From contig NZ_CP109137.1 of the NCBI RefSeq assembly GCF_035918095.1, positions 3,908,001 through 3,972,000 of the forward strand: DNA of 64,000 nucleotides, read 5' to 3'. The translations under genes and the position numbers were made by a program. Below the pieces are notes generated by a model. The model was not told the DNA's origin and did not search any database. It saw only the letters and a list, made by a program, of their open reading frames with translations. The DNA is from Streptomyces sp. NBC_01750 (lineage in GTDB: Bacteria; Actinomycetota; Actinomycetes; Streptomycetales; Streptomycetaceae). This document shows, in pieces, positions 2 to 33,030 of this stretch (positions are counted from its first letter, which is position 1; the number at the start of each line of letters is the position of its first letter).

Positions 2-1396
2 CGCGCGTACCAGAAACTGCGCGCCACGCTCGTCGCCGCCGAGCGCACCCGGTTGCGCCTCGACGAATACCGCCCCCGCGTCATGTCCTCGTTCGTACGC
101 AACCGGCTCGTCGACGAGGTGTACCTGCCCCTCATCGGTGACAACCTCGCCAAGCAGCTCGGAGCGGCCGGAAACGGCAAGCGGACCGACAGCAGCGGTC
201 TGCTGCTGCTCGTCTCGCCGCCCGGCTACGGCAAGACGACGCTCATGGAGTACGTCGCCGACCGCCTCGGCCTGCTTCTGGTGAAGGTCGACGGACCGGC
301 CCTCGGCCGCACCACCACCTCCCTGGATCCGGCGGAGGCGCCGGACGCCACAGCCCGCCAGGAGGTCGAGAAGATCAACTTCGCGCTGGCGGCAGGCAAC
401 AACGTCCTGCTGTACCTGGACGACATCCAGCACACCTCACCGGAGCTGCTGCAGAAGTTCATCCCGCTGTGCGACGCCACCCGCACCCTGGGCGGCCACG
501 ACCTGCGCGGCAAGCGCTTTGCGGTCTGCATGGCCGGCAACCCCTACACCGAGTCCGGGCAGCGCTTCCGCATCCCAGACATGCTCGCCAACCGCGCCGA
601 TGTCTGGAACCTCGGCGACGTCCTGACCGGGAAGGAGGACGTCTTCGCGTTGAGCTTCATCGAGAACGCCCTCACCTCCAACCCGGTCCTCGCTCCTCTC
701 GCCGGACGGGACCGCGCCGACCTCGACGTGCTCGTCCGTCTGGCGGCCGAAGACCCCACTGTCCGCCGCGACCTGCTCGCGCACCCGTACGCACCCGCCG
801 AGCTCGACCGGATCCTCGCCGTACTGCGGCATCTGCTCACCGCCCGCGAGACGGTCCTCGCGGTCAACGGGGCGTACATGGCCTCCGCCGCCCAGTCCGA
901 CGCCACTCGCACCGAACCGCCTTTCCAGCTCCAGGGCTCGTACCGCAACCTGAACAAGATTGCCCAGCGCATCGTGCCCGTCATGAACGCCTCGGAACTC
1001 GCAGCCGTCATCGACGACCACTACAAGGGCGAGGCCCAGACCCTCACTGCGGGCGCCGAGGCCAACCTCCTCAAGCTCGCCGAACTGCGCTCCACCCTGA
1101 CCGATAAGCAGGCCGCCCGCTGGGCCGAGATCAAGTCCCCCTATGCACGCCGACAGGCGCTGGGCGGCCCCGAGGAGGACCCCCTCACGCGGGCCGTGGC
1201 CGCCCTCGGCCTGCTCGCCGACCGGGTGGCCGCGGTGGAATCCGCGATCGTCCGGGCTGCCGATCCCCGCCATTTGCTCAGCGCTCCTCACGCCACGGGA
1301 CACGAGGCGAATCCCAAAGGATCACGTGACCGGCAGGACGGGGAAAGGTCAGGTTCGGGGCCTGGGGCCGCACGTACGCTTCCGGTCGATCGGTAG
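2..1396 (+). CDS. AAA+ ATPase, C-terminal part (5' end outside window)
   Basis: The reading frame is open from the left edge, so the start lies upstream. The visible part has a Walker A (PPGYGKTT) and a Walker B (LLYLDDIQ), with a sensor-like AGNPYTESG about 65 residues later, as in MoxR/AAA_3-type ATPases. From memory it resembles the C-terminal module of very large actinobacterial proteins annotated as DNA repair ATPase; that name is an inference. The last 35-45 residues (rich in G, R, S, P) look unrelated to the domain and run into an IS3 scar, so the natural C-terminus may have been lost. The family and active-site motifs are clear. The cellular role is not visible here. Confidence 0.75.
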   Translation, partial: RAYQKLRATLVAAERTRLRLDEYRPRVMSSFVRNRLVDEVYLPLIGDNLAKQLGAAGNGKRTDSSGLLLLVSPPGYGKTTLMEYVADRLGLLLVKVDGPALGRTTTSLDPAEAPDATARQEVEKINFALAAGNNVLLYLDDIQHTSPELLQKFIPLCDATRTLGGHDLRGKRFAVCMAGNPYTESGQRFRIPDMLANRADVWNLGDVLTGKEDVFALSFIENALTSNPVLAPLAGRDRADLDVLVRLAAEDPTVRRDLLAHPYAPAELDRILAVLRHLLTARETVLAVNGAYMASAAQSDATRTEPPFQLQGSYRNLNKIAQRIVPVMNASELAAVIDDHYKGEAQTLTAGAEANLLKLAELRSTLTDKQAARWAEIKSPYARRQALGGPEEDPLTRAVAALGLLADRVAAVESAIVRAADPRHLLSAPHATGHEANPKGSRDRQDGERSGSGPGAARTLPVDR

Positions 1397-2660: not shown

Positions 2661-3123
2661 AATCGAGTGTTGCAAGTACGGAACAGCATAGAGCTTCAGG
2701 GCCGACCGCCCGGGTGTTTTGCGGCCATCGCGCCCCGTCGGATGTCATGGATGGGGGCGAGGCCCGACACAGCACCCGGGGAACCAACACGACAGCCAGG
2801 AGGGCCGACCGGGGAGCCGGTCGGGCGCATCTGGATCCGGCAGGCGCTCGGCGCCCTCGGATGAGGTCACCCGAGGCGAGCCAGCTTCCCTGATGCGCGC
2901 ATTGGCCGCACGCCCTGCCTAGGCTGCTCTGGGGCGAAGTAGCCTTCGACTGACGCACCCCCGAGGAACGCCAACCCAGAGCCCTCAACTGGGGTTTGAC
3001 CATTGTGATTTGACACGTCACCAGGTGCGAGCGAGAAGAAGTGCTTCGAGTGTCGCCATTCCCCTGCGGTGCGAGCTTCGGATCGCTAGCTTGTGCGTGG
3101 ATCACTCAGGAGGGAGGCGAAGC
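2661..3123. other. Intergenic stretch, no gene recognised
   Basis: About 460 bp between the divergent XRE gene and the coiled-coil gene at 3124. Reading frames here look like chance high-GC ORFs with no recognisable domain. It should hold the promoters for both genes. A strong ribosome site (AGGAGGG, 3108-3114) at its right end sets the downstream start. Confidence 0.5.
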
Positions 3124-3693
3124 GTGCACACGAGGGCAAGCAATGCAGAGGACCCCTTCGTCACCCATCTGCGCCAGATCGAGGCCACCGAGCGAGACAA
3201 GTGGGTCTCCGCCGACGAGGCGTGCACCAAGGCTGCGTATTACGTGAACGAACTGCGCCAGCGCCTCGTCGAGGCCGAGCGGGAGCTCGCGGCCGCGGAA
3301 CAGGAGCACACAGTGGCCGCGGAGCGGCTCGCGGTGGTGCGCGAGATCATCGCCGATGCCGAGCGACTTCTCACTCAGCCTGACCGCGACACCACAGGCG
3401 GGACTGAAGCCGAACAGCCGGACCAGCCCAAACCGCGGGCCAGCAGTCCGGGCCGCTCGACACATGACACTGGCCCAGCAGTTGCACCCACGGTGAGGGC
3501 GCTCGTTCTTGAAGCCCTTGCCGACGGGAAGGCGACCCAGCTCTCCTCGATCAGAGCTCACGTCCAGCGCGGCCGCCCTCAAACACCGCCCAATTCGGTC
3601 CGCTCGACGATCAGAACGTTGTGCGACCGCGGACAGGTTGCACTCCTCGGCCGCGCGACCTATCGACTGGTGCCATTGGAGGCGCATACGTAG
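3124..3693 (+). CDS. Coiled-coil protein with C-terminal winged-helix-like domain
   Basis: GTG start chosen because AGGAGGG lies 9 nt upstream; 189 residues. Residues about 35-85 are a long amphipathic helix (LVEAERELAAAEQE then AERLAVVREIIADAERLL), predicted coiled coil. A charged proline/glutamine linker follows. The last 65 residues (VRALVLEALADGK, then SSIRAHV, then SVRSTIRTLCDRGQVALLG) have the helix-turn-helix-wing pattern of a small DNA-binding domain. I do not recognise the family. A hairpin terminator follows, so it is probably transcribed alone. A role as a dimeric DNA-binding regulator is an inference. Confidence 0.65.
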   Translation: MHTRASNAEDPFVTHLRQIEATERDKWVSADEACTKAAYYVNELRQRLVEAERELAAAEQEHTVAAERLAVVREIIADAERLLTQPDRDTTGGTEAEQPDQPKPRASSPGRSTHDTGPAVAPTVRALVLEALADGKATQLSSIRAHVQRGRPQTPPNSVRSTIRTLCDRGQVALLGRATYRLVPLEAHT

Positions 3694-3867: not shown

Positions 3868-4551
3868 ATGAGCGGCGGGACGTCCAACGGGTCGACCCGT
3901 GCCAGGATCCTGCCGACCGAGGCGATGGAGCCCCGCCGACAGCTTGAACTGCTGGACGTCACCGCACGCCTGCAGCACAAGGAACGGGACGGCGCCCCTA
4001 TCGGCGCAGTGAGCGCGGCCATGGGAATCAGCGAGAAGACCATCGCCGGAGCGCACGGCTTTCTGAGGCAGAACGGGCTCCTTGAGCCGGGCTGCCAGAT
4101 GTTCGCTCTCACCCCCGCCGGCCAACGGCTGGCGGAGCTGCGGTCTGCGGACTCAGCCCGGGCCCGGCTCCACCTTGGCGAGCTGTGGTCGCCCACGTGG
4201 TTCACCACGGCCGCCATCCGGCTGCTCGAGCACGGTCCACAGGAAGCCGCCGTGCTGGCCCAGCACTTGGCCCGTGGATTGAGCAAGCGGATCGAGCGTG
4301 GGCTCCATCTGGTGCACTGGCTGGAGTACGCCCTGGTCATCCGCAAGGGCGAAGACGGGCAGATGGAACTGGCGAGGGAGGCAGCCCGCGCCCCGGCTCC
4401 CCCGCTCCTGGGCTCCAGCGAGGCAATCACGGCGCTTCCGCGCGAGCGCTTCCTCGCGGTCATGGACGGCTACCGGACGATCATCGCCGCTCTGGCCTCG
4501 GCGCCTGAGCCTGCCAACAGCCCTCCCGACAGCCCGCCGCGCACCCAGTAA
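3868..4551 (+). CDS. Protein with two winged-helix-like segments
   Basis: ATG at 3868 is the likeliest start (227 residues); the frame is open further upstream but without domain-like sequence. Residues about 25-90 (GAVSAAMGISEKTIAGAHGF, then LLEPGCQMFALTPAGQRLAEL) match a MarR/PadR-like winged helix with its wing. Residues about 100-165 (TTAAIRLLEHGPQEAAVLAQ, then ALVIRKGEDGQMELA) look like a second copy. This suggests a DNA-binding protein working as an internally duplicated unit. The tail is Pro/Ser-rich. It lies about 200 bp upstream of the recombinase-like/transposase-like pair on the same strand, so it may regulate or assist that module. The family is not recognised. Confidence 0.6.
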   Translation: MSGGTSNGSTRARILPTEAMEPRRQLELLDVTARLQHKERDGAPIGAVSAAMGISEKTIAGAHGFLRQNGLLEPGCQMFALTPAGQRLAELRSADSARARLHLGELWSPTWFTTAAIRLLEHGPQEAAVLAQHLARGLSKRIERGLHLVHWLEYALVIRKGEDGQMELAREAARAPAPPLLGSSEAITALPRERFLAVMDGYRTIIAALASAPEPANSPPDSPPRTQ

Positions 4552-4754
4552 GCGGGCTACGCCCCGTCGACGGCAGCCCGGACGGGCTTCGCCGCGCCCC
4601 CGCTCACCCATTCGCACACTCCATGTTGCCGCGGAGATCAACCATGCTCAATGTGTTGCATGTATGGAACGCATTAGATCGTTCGCCTCACCCTGTGCCG
4701 GATCGGGGCGGAGCAATCGGTCTGCCCGGTACCGCCCATCGGAGGACGCTCATC

Positions 4755-5693
4755 GTGGGAACTGACCTCTCCCTCACGCACGGCATCGACCGTGTACTCC
4801 AGGTCTGGCAGGAAATGGCCGCTCATGACGAAATGTCGGGCCAGACCTTCGACAAGTTCGGCCTGCTGCTCCGGCGACTCGGCCGGTACGCCACCGTGCG
4901 AGGCACGCTGTTGATCAGCGACGTCCGGCCCGGGCTGGTCGAGGACTTCGTCAACGCCAAGGGCCACAGCCGCCACGGTCACGTCTCCGATGCCGCCGTA
5001 GCCACGCGGCTGCTGCGGCGCAGCGTCGTACGGGCTGCCTTCCGCACCTTGCGCGAGCTCGGCCTGAGCGACCAGGACCCGACCGGGGACATCGTTCTCC
5101 CCGCTCGTACCCATGAGGGCGTCCGCGCCCTGACCGAGGACGAAATCGTGGACCTGCGCCACCACGCCTCCTTCACCACCCGCCCCACCCGGCATGCCGC
5201 AGCCGCCGCGCTGGCCCTCGCAGGCGGGCACAGCGGCGAGATCGGCCACACCGTCGTCGCGGACCTCGACATGGCCTACAGCAGGGTGTGGATACACGGC
5301 TCCAGCAAGTACGAGCCACGGTGGTGCCGACTGGATGCCTGGGGGCGTCACGTACTGGCCGAACGCGCCCGGCACGTCAGCGCCCAGCACCCCGAGCCCT
5401 CAACGGCGCGCCTCGCAGTCTCGAGCCGTCCCACTTCCGACGCAGCCCTTCAAGCCCGCGCCTGCGTCGCCCTCGGGGACCTCCTTCGCCGCGCAGGGCT
5501 CGGCGATGAGCCCGACGTCAAACCCGCCTCCATCACCGCCACCGCCGCCATCGCCGCATTCGAGGCGACCGGCCGCATCGAGGAGGCGGCCCGCAGCATC
5601 GGCCTTCGCTCCCTCGACCGCGCCGCCGCCATCATCGGCTTCGACTGGCGCTGCGATCCCGCCTACACCGACGGAGTACCGCCCCGTGCCTGA
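4755..5693 (+). CDS. Tyrosine-recombinase-like protein lacking catalytic residues
   Basis: GTG at 4755 is preferred because GGAGG lies 9 nt upstream (312 residues); an ATG at 4644 is in frame. Residues about 20-70 look like the N-terminal SAM-like core-binding domain of integrases (TFDKFGLLLRRLGRYATVRG). ALTEDEIVDLR begins the catalytic-domain fold. The expected first arginine is replaced (GGHSGEIGHT). The beta-hairpin lysine region is recognisable (SSKYEPRWCRL), but the HxxR box and the nucleophile tyrosine are absent (SITATAAIAAFEATG, then RAAAIIGFDW). It should bind DNA but not cut it. Its stop overlaps the next gene's start by 8 nt, implying translational coupling. Confidence 0.6.
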   Translation: MGTDLSLTHGIDRVLQVWQEMAAHDEMSGQTFDKFGLLLRRLGRYATVRGTLLISDVRPGLVEDFVNAKGHSRHGHVSDAAVATRLLRRSVVRAAFRTLRELGLSDQDPTGDIVLPARTHEGVRALTEDEIVDLRHHASFTTRPTRHAAAAALALAGGHSGEIGHTVVADLDMAYSRVWIHGSSKYEPRWCRLDAWGRHVLAERARHVSAQHPEPSTARLAVSSRPTSDAALQARACVALGDLLRRAGLGDEPDVKPASITATAAIAAFEATGRIEEAARSIGLRSLDRAAAIIGFDWRCDPAYTDGVPPRA

Positions 5694-6876
5694 CGACATC
5701 TTCGGTGACCCGCTGCCCGAGCAGGGCAGGCCCAACCGCCTGAACGCACCGTCACGCCACCAGTTCCAGGACGCCGTGGACAAGCTGCTGGTCCCGAGCA
5801 GCGACGCACTCGAAGAAGCATTCCGCAGCTACGCCGCCAGACAGGCACTGGAACAGGGGCTCTTCCCGTCCGGCGTTCCCAAGGTCTGGAGCCGCCCGGA
5901 GCGCCGACAGCTCCTCGTGGGCGACGCCACCGTCCCACGGGCGATCTCGAAAGCAAGGAAGAGTGCAACCGTCGACGAGAGCACGGGCGTGCTCCGCAAC
6001 CCCCGCGTGGACCCCGCCGCCCGCGTCTACTACGAGAACGGCGAGAAGGCCAAACGGGAGGTCCGCGGCACCAAGTGGTTCTTCGCCTCGGGCCGGTCCG
6101 ATGGCTACTGGACCCGCCTCATCCTCTCCTTCGCCTACGTCGCCGGCGGCGAGTACGAGGACGAAGCAGCGGTGGCCGAACGCCAGTTCACCATGCTCAA
6201 GGACGTCCTGCCGGACTGTATGGGCGTCGTCTACGACGGCGCCTTGCGCGGTATCCACCGCGACGCCCTGGCTCGCCGGGGAATGCTGGCCATCAACAAG
6301 CAGCACGGCTCGGTGACTCCCGTGTTCTACGAACACATCAAGCTCTGCCGGAGCGGCCACGAGCTCTGGTGCAACGAAGGACGCATCGCCGAAAGCATCT
6401 CCCTCGACGACGGCACCCGCATCCTTGCGCCAGTCCCGATCACCAAGCTGGAGCCCCGCCTCGGTATCACCAAGAGCCGCTGGTACCACGTCCTGCGCAT
6501 CGCCTGCCGTCACGGAGACCACACACACCGCGTCCCCGTCGGCATCACTACCACCCCTGCGGATCGCGCTTTGCGTCAAGCCGGCAGCGGCAAACGCCCC
6601 AAGAGCGACCGTGAGCGCGGATTCCATCGCGCCGAACTACTCCAGCAGATCCCCCAGTCCACACTCGCACACCAGCTCGTCTACCCCTACCGCGCGGACT
6701 CCGAGTCCGTACACGCCCAGTTCGACCAGAGTCTCTGGAACCGCCGCATGGTCGCCTATGGGATGGAACGGCAGAAGGTGTTCGTCCTCGGCTTCTCCCT
6801 CGCCCAGAACGCGACGAGCCACCAGATCCACCTGGAAGGGCGGAGCAACGCCCAGACCGTGTCTGGGCTGGCCTGA
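5686..6876 (+). CDS. DDE-transposase-like protein (RNase H-like fold), unknown family
   Basis: GTG start at 5686 overlaps the upstream stop codon; 396 residues. A possible catalytic triad is visible. LLVGDATVP is near residue 78, GVVYDGALRG near 183, and RADSESVHAQFDQSLWNRR near 345, spaced like the D, D and E of IS4/ISL3-type transposases. The last segment resembles the RW-x-IE-x-F box helix. Conserved cysteine/histidine pairs (KLCRSGHELWC; IACRHGDHTH) between the second D and the E may bind metal or mark an insertion domain. No flanking terminal inverted repeats were identified. Coupling to the dead tyrosine-recombinase-like gene suggests one complex. The assignment is from motif spacing alone. 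Confidence 0.55.
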   Translation: MPDDIFGDPLPEQGRPNRLNAPSRHQFQDAVDKLLVPSSDALEEAFRSYAARQALEQGLFPSGVPKVWSRPERRQLLVGDATVPRAISKARKSATVDESTGVLRNPRVDPAARVYYENGEKAKREVRGTKWFFASGRSDGYWTRLILSFAYVAGGEYEDEAAVAERQFTMLKDVLPDCMGVVYDGALRGIHRDALARRGMLAINKQHGSVTPVFYEHIKLCRSGHELWCNEGRIAESISLDDGTRILAPVPITKLEPRLGITKSRWYHVLRIACRHGDHTHRVPVGITTTPADRALRQAGSGKRPKSDRERGFHRAELLQQIPQSTLAHQLVYPYRADSESVHAQFDQSLWNRRMVAYGMERQKVFVLGFSLAQNATSHQIHLEGRSNAQTVSGLA

Positions 6877-7751: not shown

Positions 7752-8081
<330 letters not shown>

Positions 8082-8654
8082 TCAGTGGTTGCGGAGGGCG
8101 GCGAGGGTGGCGGCGAGGTCGCCCTGGTGGGGGCGGTTGTGAGGAAGTTTGGCGAGGAGGGCGGCCATGCCGCAAGTGTTGGTGAGGGCGGAGAAGACCA
8201 GGCCGCCGGCGGTGCCCGCTGAGGCGAGGCGGAAGGCGGGGCGCAGGCGACCGAGGGCGAGGCCGGCCAGGACGACGGCGCCGGCGGTGAGGCGGACCTG
8301 GCGTTCCATGCTCCACGCGGTACGCCGGGCGCCGTCGGGGTGGTGGAGGGCATTGCCGTCCGCTGCCCAGGCTCCGGTGCCGCCGGTGAGGGTGGCGGTG
8401 GTGATGCCGTTGTCGGCAAGGGTTTTGCAGGCGTTCTCGGAGCGGGCGCCGGAGGCGCAGGCGACGAGGATGTCTCCGCGCTGGGCTGCGTGGCGGATGT
8501 CGGGGAGGGCCCGGTCGAGGTGGTCGAGGGGGATGTTGAGGGCGCCGGGGAGGTGGCCGGTGGCGTACTCGCCGGGGGTGCGGACGTCCAGGACGATCAG
8601 TTCATGCAGGCGGGTGCGGGCCTGGTCGGTGTCGAGGGCGCGGGGGGTGGTCAT
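8082..8654 (-). CDS. Rhodanese with C-terminal DUF2892 membrane domain (YgaP-like)
   Basis: A 190-residue protein. Residues 1-105 form a rhodanese domain: VLDVRTPGEYATGHLPGA, and an active-site loop with the persulfide-carrying cysteine, ACASGARS. The C-terminal 75 residues (ERQVRLTAGAVVLAGLALG, then SALTNTCGMA) match the two-helix DUF2892 domain of YgaP-type proteins. It probably handles sulfane sulfur at the inner face of the membrane. An operator box lies 53 bp upstream, so it likely has its own CstR-controlled promoter. Confidence 0.85.
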   Translation of the reverse strand: MTTPRALDTDQARTRLHELIVLDVRTPGEYATGHLPGALNIPLDHLDRALPDIRHAAQRGDILVACASGARSENACKTLADNGITTATLTGGTGAWAADGNALHHPDGARRTAWSMERQVRLTAGAVVLAGLALGRLRPAFRLASAGTAGGLVFSALTNTCGMAALLAKLPHNRPHQGDLAATLAALRNH

Positions 8655-8706
8655 GAGGCGGTGTTCCGTCCTTGTTGTCGGCGGTGCCCGGTTATGGACA
8701 CCAAGT

Positions 8707-8720
8707 TACCCCGGGGGGTA
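8707..8720. promoter_or_regulatory. CsoR/CstR-type operator box 2
   Basis: TACCCCGGGGGGTA in the gap between the exporter gene and the rhodanese-DUF2892 gene, placed to control the latter. Confidence 0.75.
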
Positions 8721-8770
8721 TTGGCGGGAGGGTGGCGGCGGAGCGCCGTTGCGGGTCACGGGCGGGAAGG

Positions 8771-9517
8771 TCAGTGGACGGCGTCGGTGAGCATGAGGGC
8801 GGCGACGGCCAGGAGCACGATCGCGAAGATCCGCTGGAGGGCTTGGCCGGAGACTTTGGAGGCGAGGCGTTTGCCGTCCCAGGCTCCGAGGATCGCGGCG
8901 CCGGTGAAGGGGGCGATGACCGCCCAGTGCAGGGGCGTGCTGGTGCCGGCGCGAGCGGCGAGCGCGGCGAGGGAGTTGACGGTGATAACCAGGAGGCTGG
9001 TGCCGACCGCGGCGCGCATACGCAGTCCGAGGACGGAGACGAGGGCGGGGACGGCGAGGAAGCCGCCGCCGACGCCGAGGAAGCCGGTGACCGCGCCCAG
9101 TCCGGCGCCCGCACCGGCGGCCCGCGCCGGTCTGACGGGCCTGGGCTGCTGGTCGGGGTCGGGGGGCTTGAGCATCCTGAGGGCGGCGAGGGCCGCTATC
9201 GCGGCGAACGCGGCGGTCAGCACCGCCTCGGGCAGGCGGGCGGCGAGGGTGGCCGCGGCGATTGCGGGCACCATCCCGGCGGCCGCGAACAGCGCGCCGG
9301 TCTTCCAGCGGACGTTGCCGGAGGTGGCGTGGGTGTAGAGGGTGGTCGCGGAGGTGGCGGTGACGATGATCAGCGAGGCGGTGGCGGCGGCGGCCGGGGT
9401 GAAGCCGAGGAGGTAGATCAGGGCGGGAACGGCCAGGACGCTGCCGCCGCCGCCGAGCGCCCCGAGGGCCAGGCCGATGACGGCTCCGGCGATGAGGGCG
9501 AGGAGGAGGACACTCAC
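8771..9517 (-). CDS. tauE: TauE/SafE-family sulfite/organosulfur exporter
   Basis: A 248-residue polytopic membrane protein. The GTG start overlaps the upstream rhodanese stop codon (GTGA), showing translational coupling. The two-fold family repeat is visible: GALGGGGSVLAVPALIYLLG near the N-terminus and GFLGVGGGFLAVPALVSVLG in the second half. There are about 7-8 hydrophobic segments. In cst loci this family exports sulfite or thiosulfate formed from persulfide oxidation. The substrate is inferred from neighbours. Confidence 0.88.
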   Translation of the reverse strand: MSVLLLALIAGAVIGLALGALGGGGSVLAVPALIYLLGFTPAAAATASLIIVTATSATTLYTHATSGNVRWKTGALFAAAGMVPAIAAATLAARLPEAVLTAAFAAIAALAALRMLKPPDPDQQPRPVRPARAAGAGAGLGAVTGFLGVGGGFLAVPALVSVLGLRMRAAVGTSLLVITVNSLAALAARAGTSTPLHWAVIAPFTGAAILGAWDGKRLASKVSGQALQRIFAIVLLAVAALMLTDAVH

Positions 9518-9873
9518 GCTATCCGGCCGCTGCTTCCTCGTTCGTCGACGACCGGCAGCCCGGACGACGCCCAGGCGTGCATACCGCCCTTGACGTCGAC
9601 GGCCTCGGCTCCGCGCCCGGCCAGGAGTTTGGCGGCCTGCTGGGAGCGGTGCCCGGAGCGGCAGATCACCACCAGCGGCCGGCCCTCGGCCGTGGCGGGC
9701 AGGCCGGAGCCGGTGACCAGCCGGGAGAGCGGGACGTGGACGGCGCCGGGGGCGTGGCCGGTGTTCCACTCGACCTGCTCGCGGACGTCGAGGAGGACGG
9801 CGTCGCCGTCGGTGGTGCGCCGACGGGCCTGGTCGGGGGTGACGCGGGCGATGCCGCGGCGGAAGAGGAACAT
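9514..9873 (-). CDS. Single-domain rhodanese
   Basis: ATG at 9873 chosen (GGAAGG 7 nt upstream; 119 residues). It is a compact rhodanese domain with VLLDVREQVEWNTGHAPGA and the active-site loop VICRSGHRS, whose cysteine would carry the persulfide. It lies 48 bp downstream of the CstB-like gene and overlaps the exporter gene by 4 nt, in the same operon. It probably moves sulfane sulfur between low-molecular thiols and the dioxygenase. Confidence 0.88.
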   Translation of the reverse strand: MFLFRRGIARVTPDQARRRTTDGDAVLLDVREQVEWNTGHAPGAVHVPLSRLVTGSGLPATAEGRPLVVICRSGHRSQQAAKLLAGRGAEAVDVKGGMHAWASSGLPVVDERGSSGRIA

Positions 9874-9921
9874 CCGCGTTCCTTCCAATTCTCGGGTGGC
9901 AGAGGGCAAGGGGGCAGCAGT

Positions 9922-11289
9922 TCAGCTGCCGGTGCAGGTGGTGAGGGGCAGGCCGGCGTCGGTTGCGGCGTCGAAGGAGTCGTCGACGGCGACGACGTCG
10001 CGGCCCGCAGCGTCCAGCAGGGAGGCGGCGATACCCGCGCGCATCCCGCCCGCGCAGTGCACCCACACCGTCCCGGCCGGTACGTCGGCCAAGCGGCGGT
10101 GGAGATGGTGGATCGGGATGTGCACGGAGCCTTCGATCCAGCCCGTGGCGCGTTCGGAGTCCCGGCGCACATCGAGGACCACGTCAGGGCTGGGGTCCTG
10201 GGCGGCGAGGTCGGCGAAGGTGGCGCGGGGGAAGGAGCGCGGGGTGTGGCCGTCGGGTATCCAGTCGCGGACGGTGCCAGTGGCGGCGGCGGCTGGGCGG
10301 TCGATGCCGACGCGGACCAGTTCGCGCTGGGCGGCGGCGAGCTGGGCGGCTGACTGGGCGAGGAGGGTGACGGGCTTGCCCCAGGGGATCATCCAGGCGA
10401 GGTAGGTGGCGATCTTCCCCTCCGCCTCGAAGTTGAACGATCCCGCGACGTGGCCCTCGGCAAACGCGATCCGGTTGCGCAGGTCCACCACCCACTCCCC
10501 GGCGGCCAGGCGTTCGGCGATGTCGGCGGCGTCGGCCAGCGGGGGTGCGGTCAGGTCCACCGGCGCGGGGCCGTCGGAGTTGGCCGGGCCCATGTGGGCG
10601 TAGTAGGCGGGCACGTCCTCCAGGCCGGCCAGCAGGGCGGCGACGAAGGAGTCGACGTCCTTGACCAGGGCGTCGTTGGTCGTCTTCTCCTTGCCGATGG
10701 TGGTGGCGTCGCCCTCGGACTGGGAGGAGGAGCAGAAGCTCCCGAACCCGTGGGTGGGCAGCACCGGCGTCTCGTCGGGGAGTTCGGCGGCGAGCCGGCG
10801 GGCGGAGGCGTGCTGGGCGCGGGCCAGCTGGTCGGTCAGCCGCGGCTCGACCAGGTCAGGGCGGCCGACCGAGCCGATCAGCAGCGACCCGCCGGTGAAC
10901 ACCGCGGCCACCGTCCCCTGCTCTTGCAGCACGTAGGAGGTGTGGTGCGGGGTGTGTCCGGGGGTGGCCATCGCCCGCAGGGTGATCCCCCCGTCCACGC
11001 TCACCGTGTCACCGTCGGCGACCGGTGTGCGGGCGAAGCCGACCCGGGCGGCGGCGGGCACGCGGTAGGCGGCGCCGGTAATGCGGGCCAGGTCCAGGCC
11101 GCCGGTGACGTAGTCGTTGTGGATATGGGTCTCCACCACGTGCGATATCCGCACCCCCCGCGCGGCGGCCGCCTCCAGAACCCGGTCGACGTCGCGGGGC
11201 GGGTCCACCGCCACCGCGGTGTGCGCGCCGCCTGCCAGGTAGCTGCGGTTTCCGAGGCCCTCGGTCTCGATGGCGTCGATGAAGAACAC
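9922..11289 (-). CDS. cstB: CstB-like persulfide dioxygenase/rhodanese fusion
   Basis: GTG start with AAAGGAG upstream; 455 residues. Residues 1-240 are a metallo-beta-lactamase domain of the ETHE1/persulfide dioxygenase type (ETHIHNDYVTGG, ATPGHTPHH, IGSVGRPDL, LPTHGFGSFC). A first rhodanese-like domain (about 260-355) lacks the catalytic cysteine (TLLAQSAAQ). The second (about 365-455) has it (WVHCAGGMRAG). This MBL, inactive-rhodanese, active-rhodanese order is that of CstB, which oxidises persulfides and releases thiosulfate. It heads the leftward operon with rhodanese and exporter. Two operator boxes lie 26-73 bp upstream. Confidence 0.9.
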   Translation of the reverse strand: MFFIDAIETEGLGNRSYLAGGAHTAVAVDPPRDVDRVLEAAAARGVRISHVVETHIHNDYVTGGLDLARITGAAYRVPAAARVGFARTPVADGDTVSVDGGITLRAMATPGHTPHHTSYVLQEQGTVAAVFTGGSLLIGSVGRPDLVEPRLTDQLARAQHASARRLAAELPDETPVLPTHGFGSFCSSSQSEGDATTIGKEKTTNDALVKDVDSFVAALLAGLEDVPAYYAHMGPANSDGPAPVDLTAPPLADAADIAERLAAGEWVVDLRNRIAFAEGHVAGSFNFEAEGKIATYLAWMIPWGKPVTLLAQSAAQLAAAQRELVRVGIDRPAAAATGTVRDWIPDGHTPRSFPRATFADLAAQDPSPDVVLDVRRDSERATGWIEGSVHIPIHHLHRRLADVPAGTVWVHCAGGMRAGIAASLLDAAGRDVVAVDDSFDAATDAGLPLTTCTGS

Positions 11290-11727: not shown

Positions 11728-12067
11728 GGGCGCTGGCGCCCGCACGCCGAACCGCTGGGACAGAACGGACACCCGGGTGGGCCGAGCAGCCGGCCAGTGG
11801 GACCGGCCCGCCGCACGCCCTAACAGCCCCGTCGCAGGTCAGCGGCCTTCTGCAACCTCCATGGAACCGCTGTGGCTTATGGGGGCGCATCCGCGGAGCA
11901 CGATCCGCTAGGCTGTCCGCGGTCGGTCGGCTACTCGGCACGTGCGGGAGAAAATGTCCACTCGGACATCCCACCCACCGCGCGGGGGCGCGAGCTGACC
12001 AGGGCGTTTGACTTGCCGGGATGGCGAACCCCACTGGGGTTTCCTCCACGGTTTCCATCAAGCCCCC
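11728..12067. other. Intergenic stretch before the tRNA gene
   Basis: About 340 bp without a convincing gene; it should hold the tRNA promoter. The reading frames that cross it are artefacts of the tRNA and its surroundings. Confidence 0.5.
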
Positions 12068-12140
12068 GCCTCCGTAGCTCAGGGGATAGAGCACCGCTCT
12101 CCTAAAGCGGGTGTCGCAGGTTCGAATCCTGCCGGGGGCA
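12068..12140 (+). tRNA. tRNA-Arg (anticodon CCT)
   Basis: A full 73-nt cloverleaf. The acceptor stem GCCTCCG pairs with CGGGGGC (one T-G pair). The D-stem is GCTC/GAGC. The anticodon stem is CCGCT/AGCGG with loop CTCCTAA (anticodon CCT), and the T-arm is GCAGG-TTCGAAT-CCTGC. CCA is not encoded. Its 3' 34 nt plus one flanking base are repeated exactly at 32996-33030, marking it as an integration site. Confidence 0.95.
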
Positions 12141-12141
12141 C
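12107..12141 (+). repeat. attL-like direct repeat (tRNA-Arg 3' end)
   Basis: A 35-nt sequence covering the 3' half of the anticodon stem through the discriminator base. It is identical to 32996-33030. It is the tRNA-proximal end of a 20.9-kb island. Confidence 0.85.
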
Positions 12142-32800: not shown

Positions 32801-32995
32801 GTTCACGCCTTACCTCGCCTTCCCGCCGGAGACAAGGATCAACGCCCGGCTGCGGAAGGCCACCCGCAACCGGGCGGGCACCTCCCCTCCGACGTGAGCG
32901 CACAGTGGCGGACCTGGACGGGCGTGGGCAGTTGTCCGTTGCAGCGCTGAGTGACCAAGTCCCACGCTGTTGAACGGGCAGGGCGAACTCCTGTG

Positions 32996-33030
32996 GCGGG
33001 TGTCGCAGGTTCGAATCCTGCCGGGGGCAC
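32996..33030 (+). repeat. attR-like direct repeat (copy of tRNA-Arg 3' end)
   Basis: 35 nt identical to 12107-12141. The 5' half of the tRNA is absent here, so this is an att scar and not a gene. It defines the right end of the 20.9-kb island. Confidence 0.85.

Follow-up and report, generated by a model that had tools for sequence, protein, structure and literature searches.

A dead tyrosine-recombinase-fold protein and a Tn5-like DDE transposase as the probable core of a large tRNA-associated transposon in Streptomyces

The stretch of DNA analyzed here (the window) comprises 64,000 nucleotides of Streptomyces sp. NBC_01750 (NCBI RefSeq assembly GCF_035918095.1, contig NZ_CP109137.1, positions 3,908,001 to 3,972,000). 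It carries two overlapping genes, designated A and B, which probably form the core of a large, site-specific DNA transposon outside the Tn7 group, in which B would cut and join DNA and A would select a transfer RNA (tRNA) gene as the target. Gene A encodes a protein with the fold of a tyrosine recombinase and none of its catalytic machinery, whereas gene B very probably encodes the transposase of the element. An initial annotation of positions 3,868 to 6,876, made from the sequence alone, had suggested that the two proteins constitute a two-subunit DNA-mobilizing device. The protein folds, gene order, element ends, target duplications and empty sites described below support that suggestion.

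In the window genome (G000), the element extends over 33,419 bp from G000:C1:3886641, which lies about 21.4 kb before the window begins, to window position 12067. At the left end, GCCTCCGT is followed by GGGGCTTGCGGCAAACC; at the right end, GGGGGCTTGATGGAAACC is followed by the GCCTCCGT of the tRNA. The initial annotation saw no obvious terminal repeats, but terminal inverted repeats do exist, outside the interval it covered, which the element exceeds about tenfold in length. With the ends located elsewhere, the 3–7 kb stretch of the window was dropped as a candidate for the whole element.

Comparable ends were sought in a genus sample of 199 Streptomyces genomes; a class sample of 296 genomes served for the comparison of A and B loci. 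In outward reading, right ends are followed by the first 8 nt of tRNA-Arg(CCT) after zero to three extra bases. This pattern occurs in 40 of the 199 Streptomyces genomes, namely in 21 of the 25 genomes that have a B match and in 19 of the 174 that have none. Of the 16 Streptomyces genomes with a strong A, 15 show it and G113 does not. Two loci from different genomes (L053 and L056) are 98% identical over 5.9 kb, and in both of them tRNA-Arg(CCT) lies directly 3' of B. For left ends, a pattern consisting of the 8-mer (asked as GCCTYCGT), the terminal inverted repeat and CAGSTCA at +26, with up to two mismatches, matched 20 places in 17 genomes, and a reversed-pattern control matched none. Together, the ends delimit 18 Streptomyces elements of 7,504 to 101,687 bp, of which 15 end at the tRNA and three are stacked upstream of another element. 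At the informative base Y of the 8-mer, the left copy agrees with the host tRNA in all 15 cases; a mismatch at another base occurs in one left 8-mer, that of G125. Sequence comparison shows the ends, the 8-bp duplication, the target, the orientation and the stacking of the elements.

Several further features of the left ends were observed. In the seven left ends from which the pattern was built, for example at G000:C1:3886641-3886681, the CAGSTCA block is located 26 bp inward (six exact, counting the CAGGTCA of L034) and is followed by AAAACG-type motif repeats. The left flank in the window genome contains three tandem copies of GCCTCCGT separated by 1–2 bp (G000:C1:3886622-3886648), perhaps the footprints of earlier insertions that have since departed. 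At L060:6662 (G153:C38:88661), a fragmentary B lies only about 2 kb inside the left end; because of this position, the module of that copy is either near its left end or rearranged.

Empty and occupied sites, whose comparison the initial annotation had recommended, were found for two elements. When the flanks of the G005 element were joined, at least five of 60 relatives (G004, G013, G019, G028 and G029) matched contiguously; for the G000 element, no relative with both flanks was present among the matches listed. The copy on the Mycobacterium kansasii plasmid pMK12478 is 44,136 bp long and has GTCCCACC on both sides. Eight records matched only the right flank of this copy, at 100%, and two sister plasmids of Mycobacterium chimaera fetched from among them hold an unfilled site with a single GTCCCACC, the exact empty site of the pMK12478 insertion. 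A further genome, G408, contains 41,526 bp of the pMK12478 element, up to the contig end, at 99.99% identity, abutting tRNA-Arg(CCT), presumably on the chromosome. This pair of copies shows that the element has moved recently between a site on a plasmid and one at a tRNA gene.

The product of gene A was predicted by AlphaFold with high confidence (predicted local distance difference test score, 90.8) and combines a core-binding domain with a catalytic-domain fold, without an N-terminal extension ahead of the first helical domain. It has 67 Protein Data Bank (PDB) matches at E<=1e-3, and the 50 listed are all tyrosine recombinases. The catalytic residues are lost throughout the family: among 73 relatives, Arg I is replaced by H, F or N in 71 and kept as R in two, and the His of the HxxR box, Arg II and the nucleophilic Tyr are each found in none. 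Position 296, three residues past the nucleophile position, does not supply an invariant nucleophile, since it is Y in only 28 of the 73 relatives and H in 37. Thus, the two-domain integrase layout with replaced catalytic residues, read from a single sequence at the outset, is confirmed in fold and extends to the whole family. By sequence, Pfam, NCBIfam, PHROGs and PADLOC contain no model for A and B apart from weak integrase matches, and the PDB returned nothing for B and only weak matches for A.

The structural work on B used a natural relative, P0004, rather than the window protein. Its predicted structure is RNase H-like and nearest to the Tn5 transposase, a match found with a second aligner. 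The D/D/E-like blocks recognized at the outset correspond to a triad, D175, D279 and E435 in P0004 numbering, that is invariant in 51 of 51 relatives and in 20 of 20 members of a partly overlapping set that adds distant members. We infer the chemistry of B and a Tn5-like cut-and-paste mode. The IS4 family signature has the form Y-(2)-R-(3)-E-(6)-K (YREK). In B, its R and E are kept in all relatives and its Y in 49 of 51, whereas K is replaced by D in all 51 close relatives; K is present in 3 of the 20 members of the set with distant members, and L157 and L159 carry the whole signature. A profile link of B to PF01609 was not obtained: hhalign against seven single PF01609 proteins of the window genome gave probabilities of at most 6.2%. 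The window B lacks 95 N-terminal residues of its close relatives, which are about 490 amino acids long, and is probably defective, to judge from this truncation. With most of the N-terminal domain of B gone, the window copy of the element is probably immobile.

The two genes are closely linked. In the window they overlap by 8 bp (GTGCCTGA), the start codon of B falling within the final codons of A. A loci with E below 1e-30 number 19, in 16 of the 199 Streptomyces genomes, and B lies downstream on the same strand at all of them, within 500 bp at 18 and at 3.2 kb at one (G100); two more Streptomyces matches to A (G001 and G138) are weak. In the class sample, a strong A (80 bits or more) occurs in 11 genomes and is adjoined by B in all 11, and the A matches of 42 bits or less in 25 more genomes look like ordinary integrases. 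B without A was seen in 9 of the 199 Streptomyces genomes, as partial B matches only. All six plasmid records with B have A in front, two of them only a quarter of it. The initial annotation had staked its proposal on the folds of both proteins and on the partners not occurring independently: both folds came out as predicted, A was not found without B at any strong Streptomyces locus or in the 11 class genomes, and the order A then B was preserved at every strong Streptomyces locus.

The targets were surveyed at 59 B 3' ends, a set that includes decayed and a few orthologous or near-identical copies. In 27 of them a tRNA gene lies within 600 bp downstream, always on the same strand, and these genes comprise 21 tRNA-Arg(CCT), three tRNA-Lys(TTT), two tRNA-Gly(CCC) and one tRNA-Arg(TCT). 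Relatives of the element in other actinomycetes frequently terminate at Arg, Gly or Lys tRNA genes. In the phylogeny of A, the proteins of G270 (Lys-targeting) and G447 (Arg-targeting) are sisters (100/99), and that of G351, also Lys-targeting, groups with G332 (100/99) in another clade than G270. From these placements it follows that, as far as the tree goes, target specificity has switched and the lineages of A do not follow the target in any simple way.

Taken together, these observations suggest a mechanism for the element. B would recognize the repeated motifs at both ends and carry out cutting and joining as a Tn5-type DDE transposase. A, having lost its catalytic residues and kept a DNA-binding fold, would bind the tRNA gene and bring the complex of B and the ends to its 5' border, so that the end next to B comes to lie, as observed, against the tRNA. 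Insertion duplicates the first 8 nt of the tRNA and leaves the tRNA sequence intact; the site thus stays reusable, and this accounts for the stacked elements. Plasmids receive insertions at other sequences and would serve to pass the element from cell to cell, and the upstream helix-turn-helix (HTH) and winged-helix genes probably regulate it. The assignment of A as target selector is made by analogy with TnsF of Tn6022, and its best support is that precedent together with part of the A/B identity pattern discussed below.

Several findings weigh against this account. Foldseek alone gave no PDB match for B at E<=1e-3, and Pfam DDE_Tnp_1 was matched by only one of 51 B relatives (E 0.0025). The end motif at the tRNA in the 19 Streptomyces genomes without a B match probably marks remnants; in ten of these genomes (L162-L171), neither A nor B was present in the 1.7–13 kb fetched upstream of the motif, and these may be remnants, elements with A and B further off, or elements mobilized in trans. 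G011, which is among the 40 genomes with the end motif, can also be aligned as an empty site, so its end motif may be due to chance. No tRNA gene lies within 600 bp of 32 of the 59 B ends. Four of the 32 are stacked, with the 8-mer followed by the left end of another element (L034, L046, L048 and L052), four are on plasmids (L038-L041), five have cargo preceding a known tRNA end (the window copy, L032, L042, L043 and L161) and three have under 400 bp of sequence left at contig ends; the remaining 16, many of them fragments, fit none of these classes. L042 and L043 had at one stage been taken to lack a tRNA target, a view revised when the right ends of G141 and G109 were located 27.6 and 53.5 kb downstream of A and B. 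The tree placements of G270 and G351 count on the same side. The strongest evidence against A as target selector is that the mycobacterial and S. mirabilis plasmid copies have an A gene (incomplete in two records) and sit away from tRNA genes, and that A proteins sharing a target are not always each other's nearest relatives.

The behavior of A on plasmids and in the phylogeny is also what would be expected if the transposon were the same but B itself recognized the tRNA border. A would then bind the ends or have an architectural or regulatory part, such as keeping the two ends together or governing the opening of hairpins, and the conserved extra CAGSTCA block at left ends would suit such a role. 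This alternative is unlikely, although it is the most credible of those considered. TnsF, an inactivated tyrosine recombinase, has been shown experimentally to act as a target selector (PMC10293859, in the sections drawn on here). In addition, Streptomyces and mycobacterial pairs that share tRNA-Arg(CCT) are 47–48% identical in A and 29–35% in B, whereas both proteins are at 28–33% identity to the Gly-targeting pair of G484. In sequence, A thus behaves as if held by the target, but the Arg-targeting A proteins of G447 and G275 do not fit, being only 24–31% identical to the other Arg-targeting A proteins compared, which counts against the selector role. The right ends of G447 and G270 are alike (24 of 29 bases) while their tRNAs differ, which also counts against this alternative.

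Two further explanations assign the element to a known type. Integration of actinomycete integrative and conjugative elements (AICEs) and tRNA islands normally takes place in the 3' half of a tRNA gene and leaves no terminal inverted repeats. An ordinary island of this AICE or integrative and conjugative element (ICE) type, mobilized through tyrosine recombination, in which A would be a decayed integrase, B a passenger insertion sequence and the 8-bp repeat an att core, would agree with the use of tRNA genes, including a tRNA-Arg, as Streptomyces integrase sites with accretion (PMC9513070, as far as its relevant part describes them) and with the sign of a conventional island flanking the same tRNA on its opposite side (~32995-33030). 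It is nevertheless the least probable reading, given the absence of the nucleophilic Tyr in all 73 A relatives counted, the inverted repeats abutting the 8-mer on both sides, the plasmid copy with its unrelated 8-bp duplication and exact empty site, and insertion at the tRNA 5' end rather than in the 3' half. Only marginally less improbable is a Tn7-like element of the Tn6022 kind whose TnsC and TniQ genes were overlooked. It would share the logic of a DDE transposase, an inactivated tyrosine recombinase and one fixed chromosomal site plus plasmids, and an AAA domain is present inside the window element (window 83-1396). In the part of the genes scanned, no TnsC or TniQ/TnsD was common to five delimited elements, and none was listed in the pMK12478 copy. 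A transposon whose tRNA target is selected by A remains the preferred reading.

The features of the window copy, together with the operon of the mycobacterial copies, are collected in Table 1.

Table 1. Coordinates of the features of the A-B element (window positions unless a locus is named)
Feature	Position	Strand	Remarks
Divergent Cro/C1-type HTH gene, 115 aa	2272..2619	-	
190-aa protein	3121..3693	+	weak similarity to same-place genes of other copies (E 3e-10, 0.009, 0.04)
Winged-helix-like protein, 227 aa	3868..4551	+	kept upstream of A in Streptomyces copies
Gene A, catalytically dead tyrosine-recombinase-fold protein, 312 aa, proposed tRNA target selector	4755..5693	+	open frame; 5' of B at every strong A locus
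Gene B, DDE transposase, Tn5-like fold, 396 aa	5686..6876	+	GTG start at 5686
Cargo between B and right end: CsoR-type repressor, rhodanese-YgaP protein, TauE/SafE exporter, rhodanese, metallo-beta-lactamase-fold rhodanese protein	7752..11289	-	
Right end, terminal inverted repeat and second motif copy	12036..12067	-	read inward GGGGGCTTGATGGAAACCGTGGAGGAAACCCC
Right copy of 8-bp target duplication	12068..12075	+	GCCTCCGT, first 8 nt of tRNA
Target gene tRNA-Arg (anticodon CCT)	12068..12141	+	intact
Mycobacterial divergent operon	L038:7120-9812, L040:7155-9815, L041:5152-7818		

The 227-amino-acid winged-helix-like protein upstream of A is likely a regulator or accessory factor. The initial annotation had regarded it as duplicated and as a possible third part of the device. 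The proteins encoded at 3121-3693 and 3868-4551 are not duplicates of each other (best blastp E 6.4). As for a third part, a profile search found the winged-helix gene upstream of A in 23 of 29 Streptomyces loci and in none of 12 loci of other genera; because of this distribution, the gene is lineage-specific. In mycobacterial copies, it is replaced by a divergent operon consisting of an HTH or small gene and three hypothetical genes. Ten other copies have HTH-sized genes (74-118 amino acids) upstream, likened by size and place to the divergent HTH gene of the window.

Cargo is large and varied across elements. The window copy holds sulfur-metabolism genes, and the G005 element carries DpdE, DpdF, DpdH and DpdJ-like proteins of the Dpd DNA-modification/restriction system (L078:13115-19016, L077:130-8187), relatives of which occur in G075. 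The AAA domain of the window element occupies the last 440 residues of a 1660-amino-acid protein (L062:16414 to window 1396) that is absent from the four further elements in the comparison. Past the target tRNA, a copy of the tRNA-Arg 3' part at about window 32995-33030 (region 12100-33030) is the mark of a conventional integrase-type island. Beside the S. mirabilis plasmid copy, L039:14321-18586 contains two recombinase genes and a DUF6262 gene, which we take to resemble a Tn554-like trio.

It appears reasonably likely, if somewhat less so than the roles proposed for A and B, that these elements represent a family of giant transposons new to actinobacteria, whose Tn5-type DDE transposase is guided to tRNA genes by a catalytically dead integrase; neither an ATPase nor TniQ was detected. 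Such a family would be a second independent invention of a TnsF-style selector, with swappable tRNA specificity (Arg, Gly and Lys) and two lifestyles, chromosomal tRNA homing and plasmid hopping. If so, a Tn5-type transposase and one dead integrase would provide a simpler route to targeted insertion, and roughly one in five of the sampled Streptomyces genomes (40 of 199, one doubtful) would have an explanation for its island 5' of tRNA-Arg(CCU). The element also links tRNA islands to plasmids in mycobacteria. A two-protein, single-target system could be useful for inserting DNA of tens of kilobases at a safe site of choice.

Among site-specific DDE transposons, those known best are Tn7-like and place an ATPase (TnsC) between the selector and the transposase. 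No description of the A-B pair was found in the literature searched, in which subscription journals and preprints were thinly covered, and TnsF and Tsy were the only inactivated or recruited tyrosine-recombinase selectors met. The B fold links the element to Tn5/IS50 and the IS4 superfamily, from which it differs in its near lack of DDE_Tnp_1 matches, the K to D change of the YREK signature in most members, its tRNA target, its size of 7.5–102 kb and its partner A. Streptomyces AICEs and tRNA islands likewise target tRNA genes and show accretion in one tRNA-Arg gene, but are described in the part of the source used here as having integrases and flanking direct repeats (PMC9513070).

The closest parallel is Tn6022, in which TnsF, an inactivated tyrosine recombinase, is needed for targeting comM and acts through TniQ, with TnsA, TnsB, TnsC, TniQ and TnsF all required (Faure et al., 2023; PMC10293859; this and the following comparisons draw on sections of that report). 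Both elements combine a DDE transposon and an inactivated tyrosine-recombinase protein with a conserved chromosomal site and target duplications, and jumping of Tn6022 to conjugative plasmids has been suggested (PMC10293859). Tn6022 is Tn7-like (TnsA, TnsB, TnsC, TniQ and TnsE) and targets comM (PMC10293859), whereas the A-B element has a lone Tn5-type transposase, no TniQ or TnsC seen, and tRNA genes as targets. By description, TnsF is set apart from A by N-terminal zinc fingers, two core-binding domains and a partial catalytic domain (PMC10293859), compared with the core-binding and catalytic-like domains of the 312-residue A. Tsy elements share a TnsF-related protein and a defined target site, but they need catalytic tyrosine recombinases, no DDE transposase is described for them in those sections and inverted repeats went undetected by the authors (PMC10293859). 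Without any claim to membership of that family, the A-B element works like a Tn7/TnsF homing transposon built from different parts.

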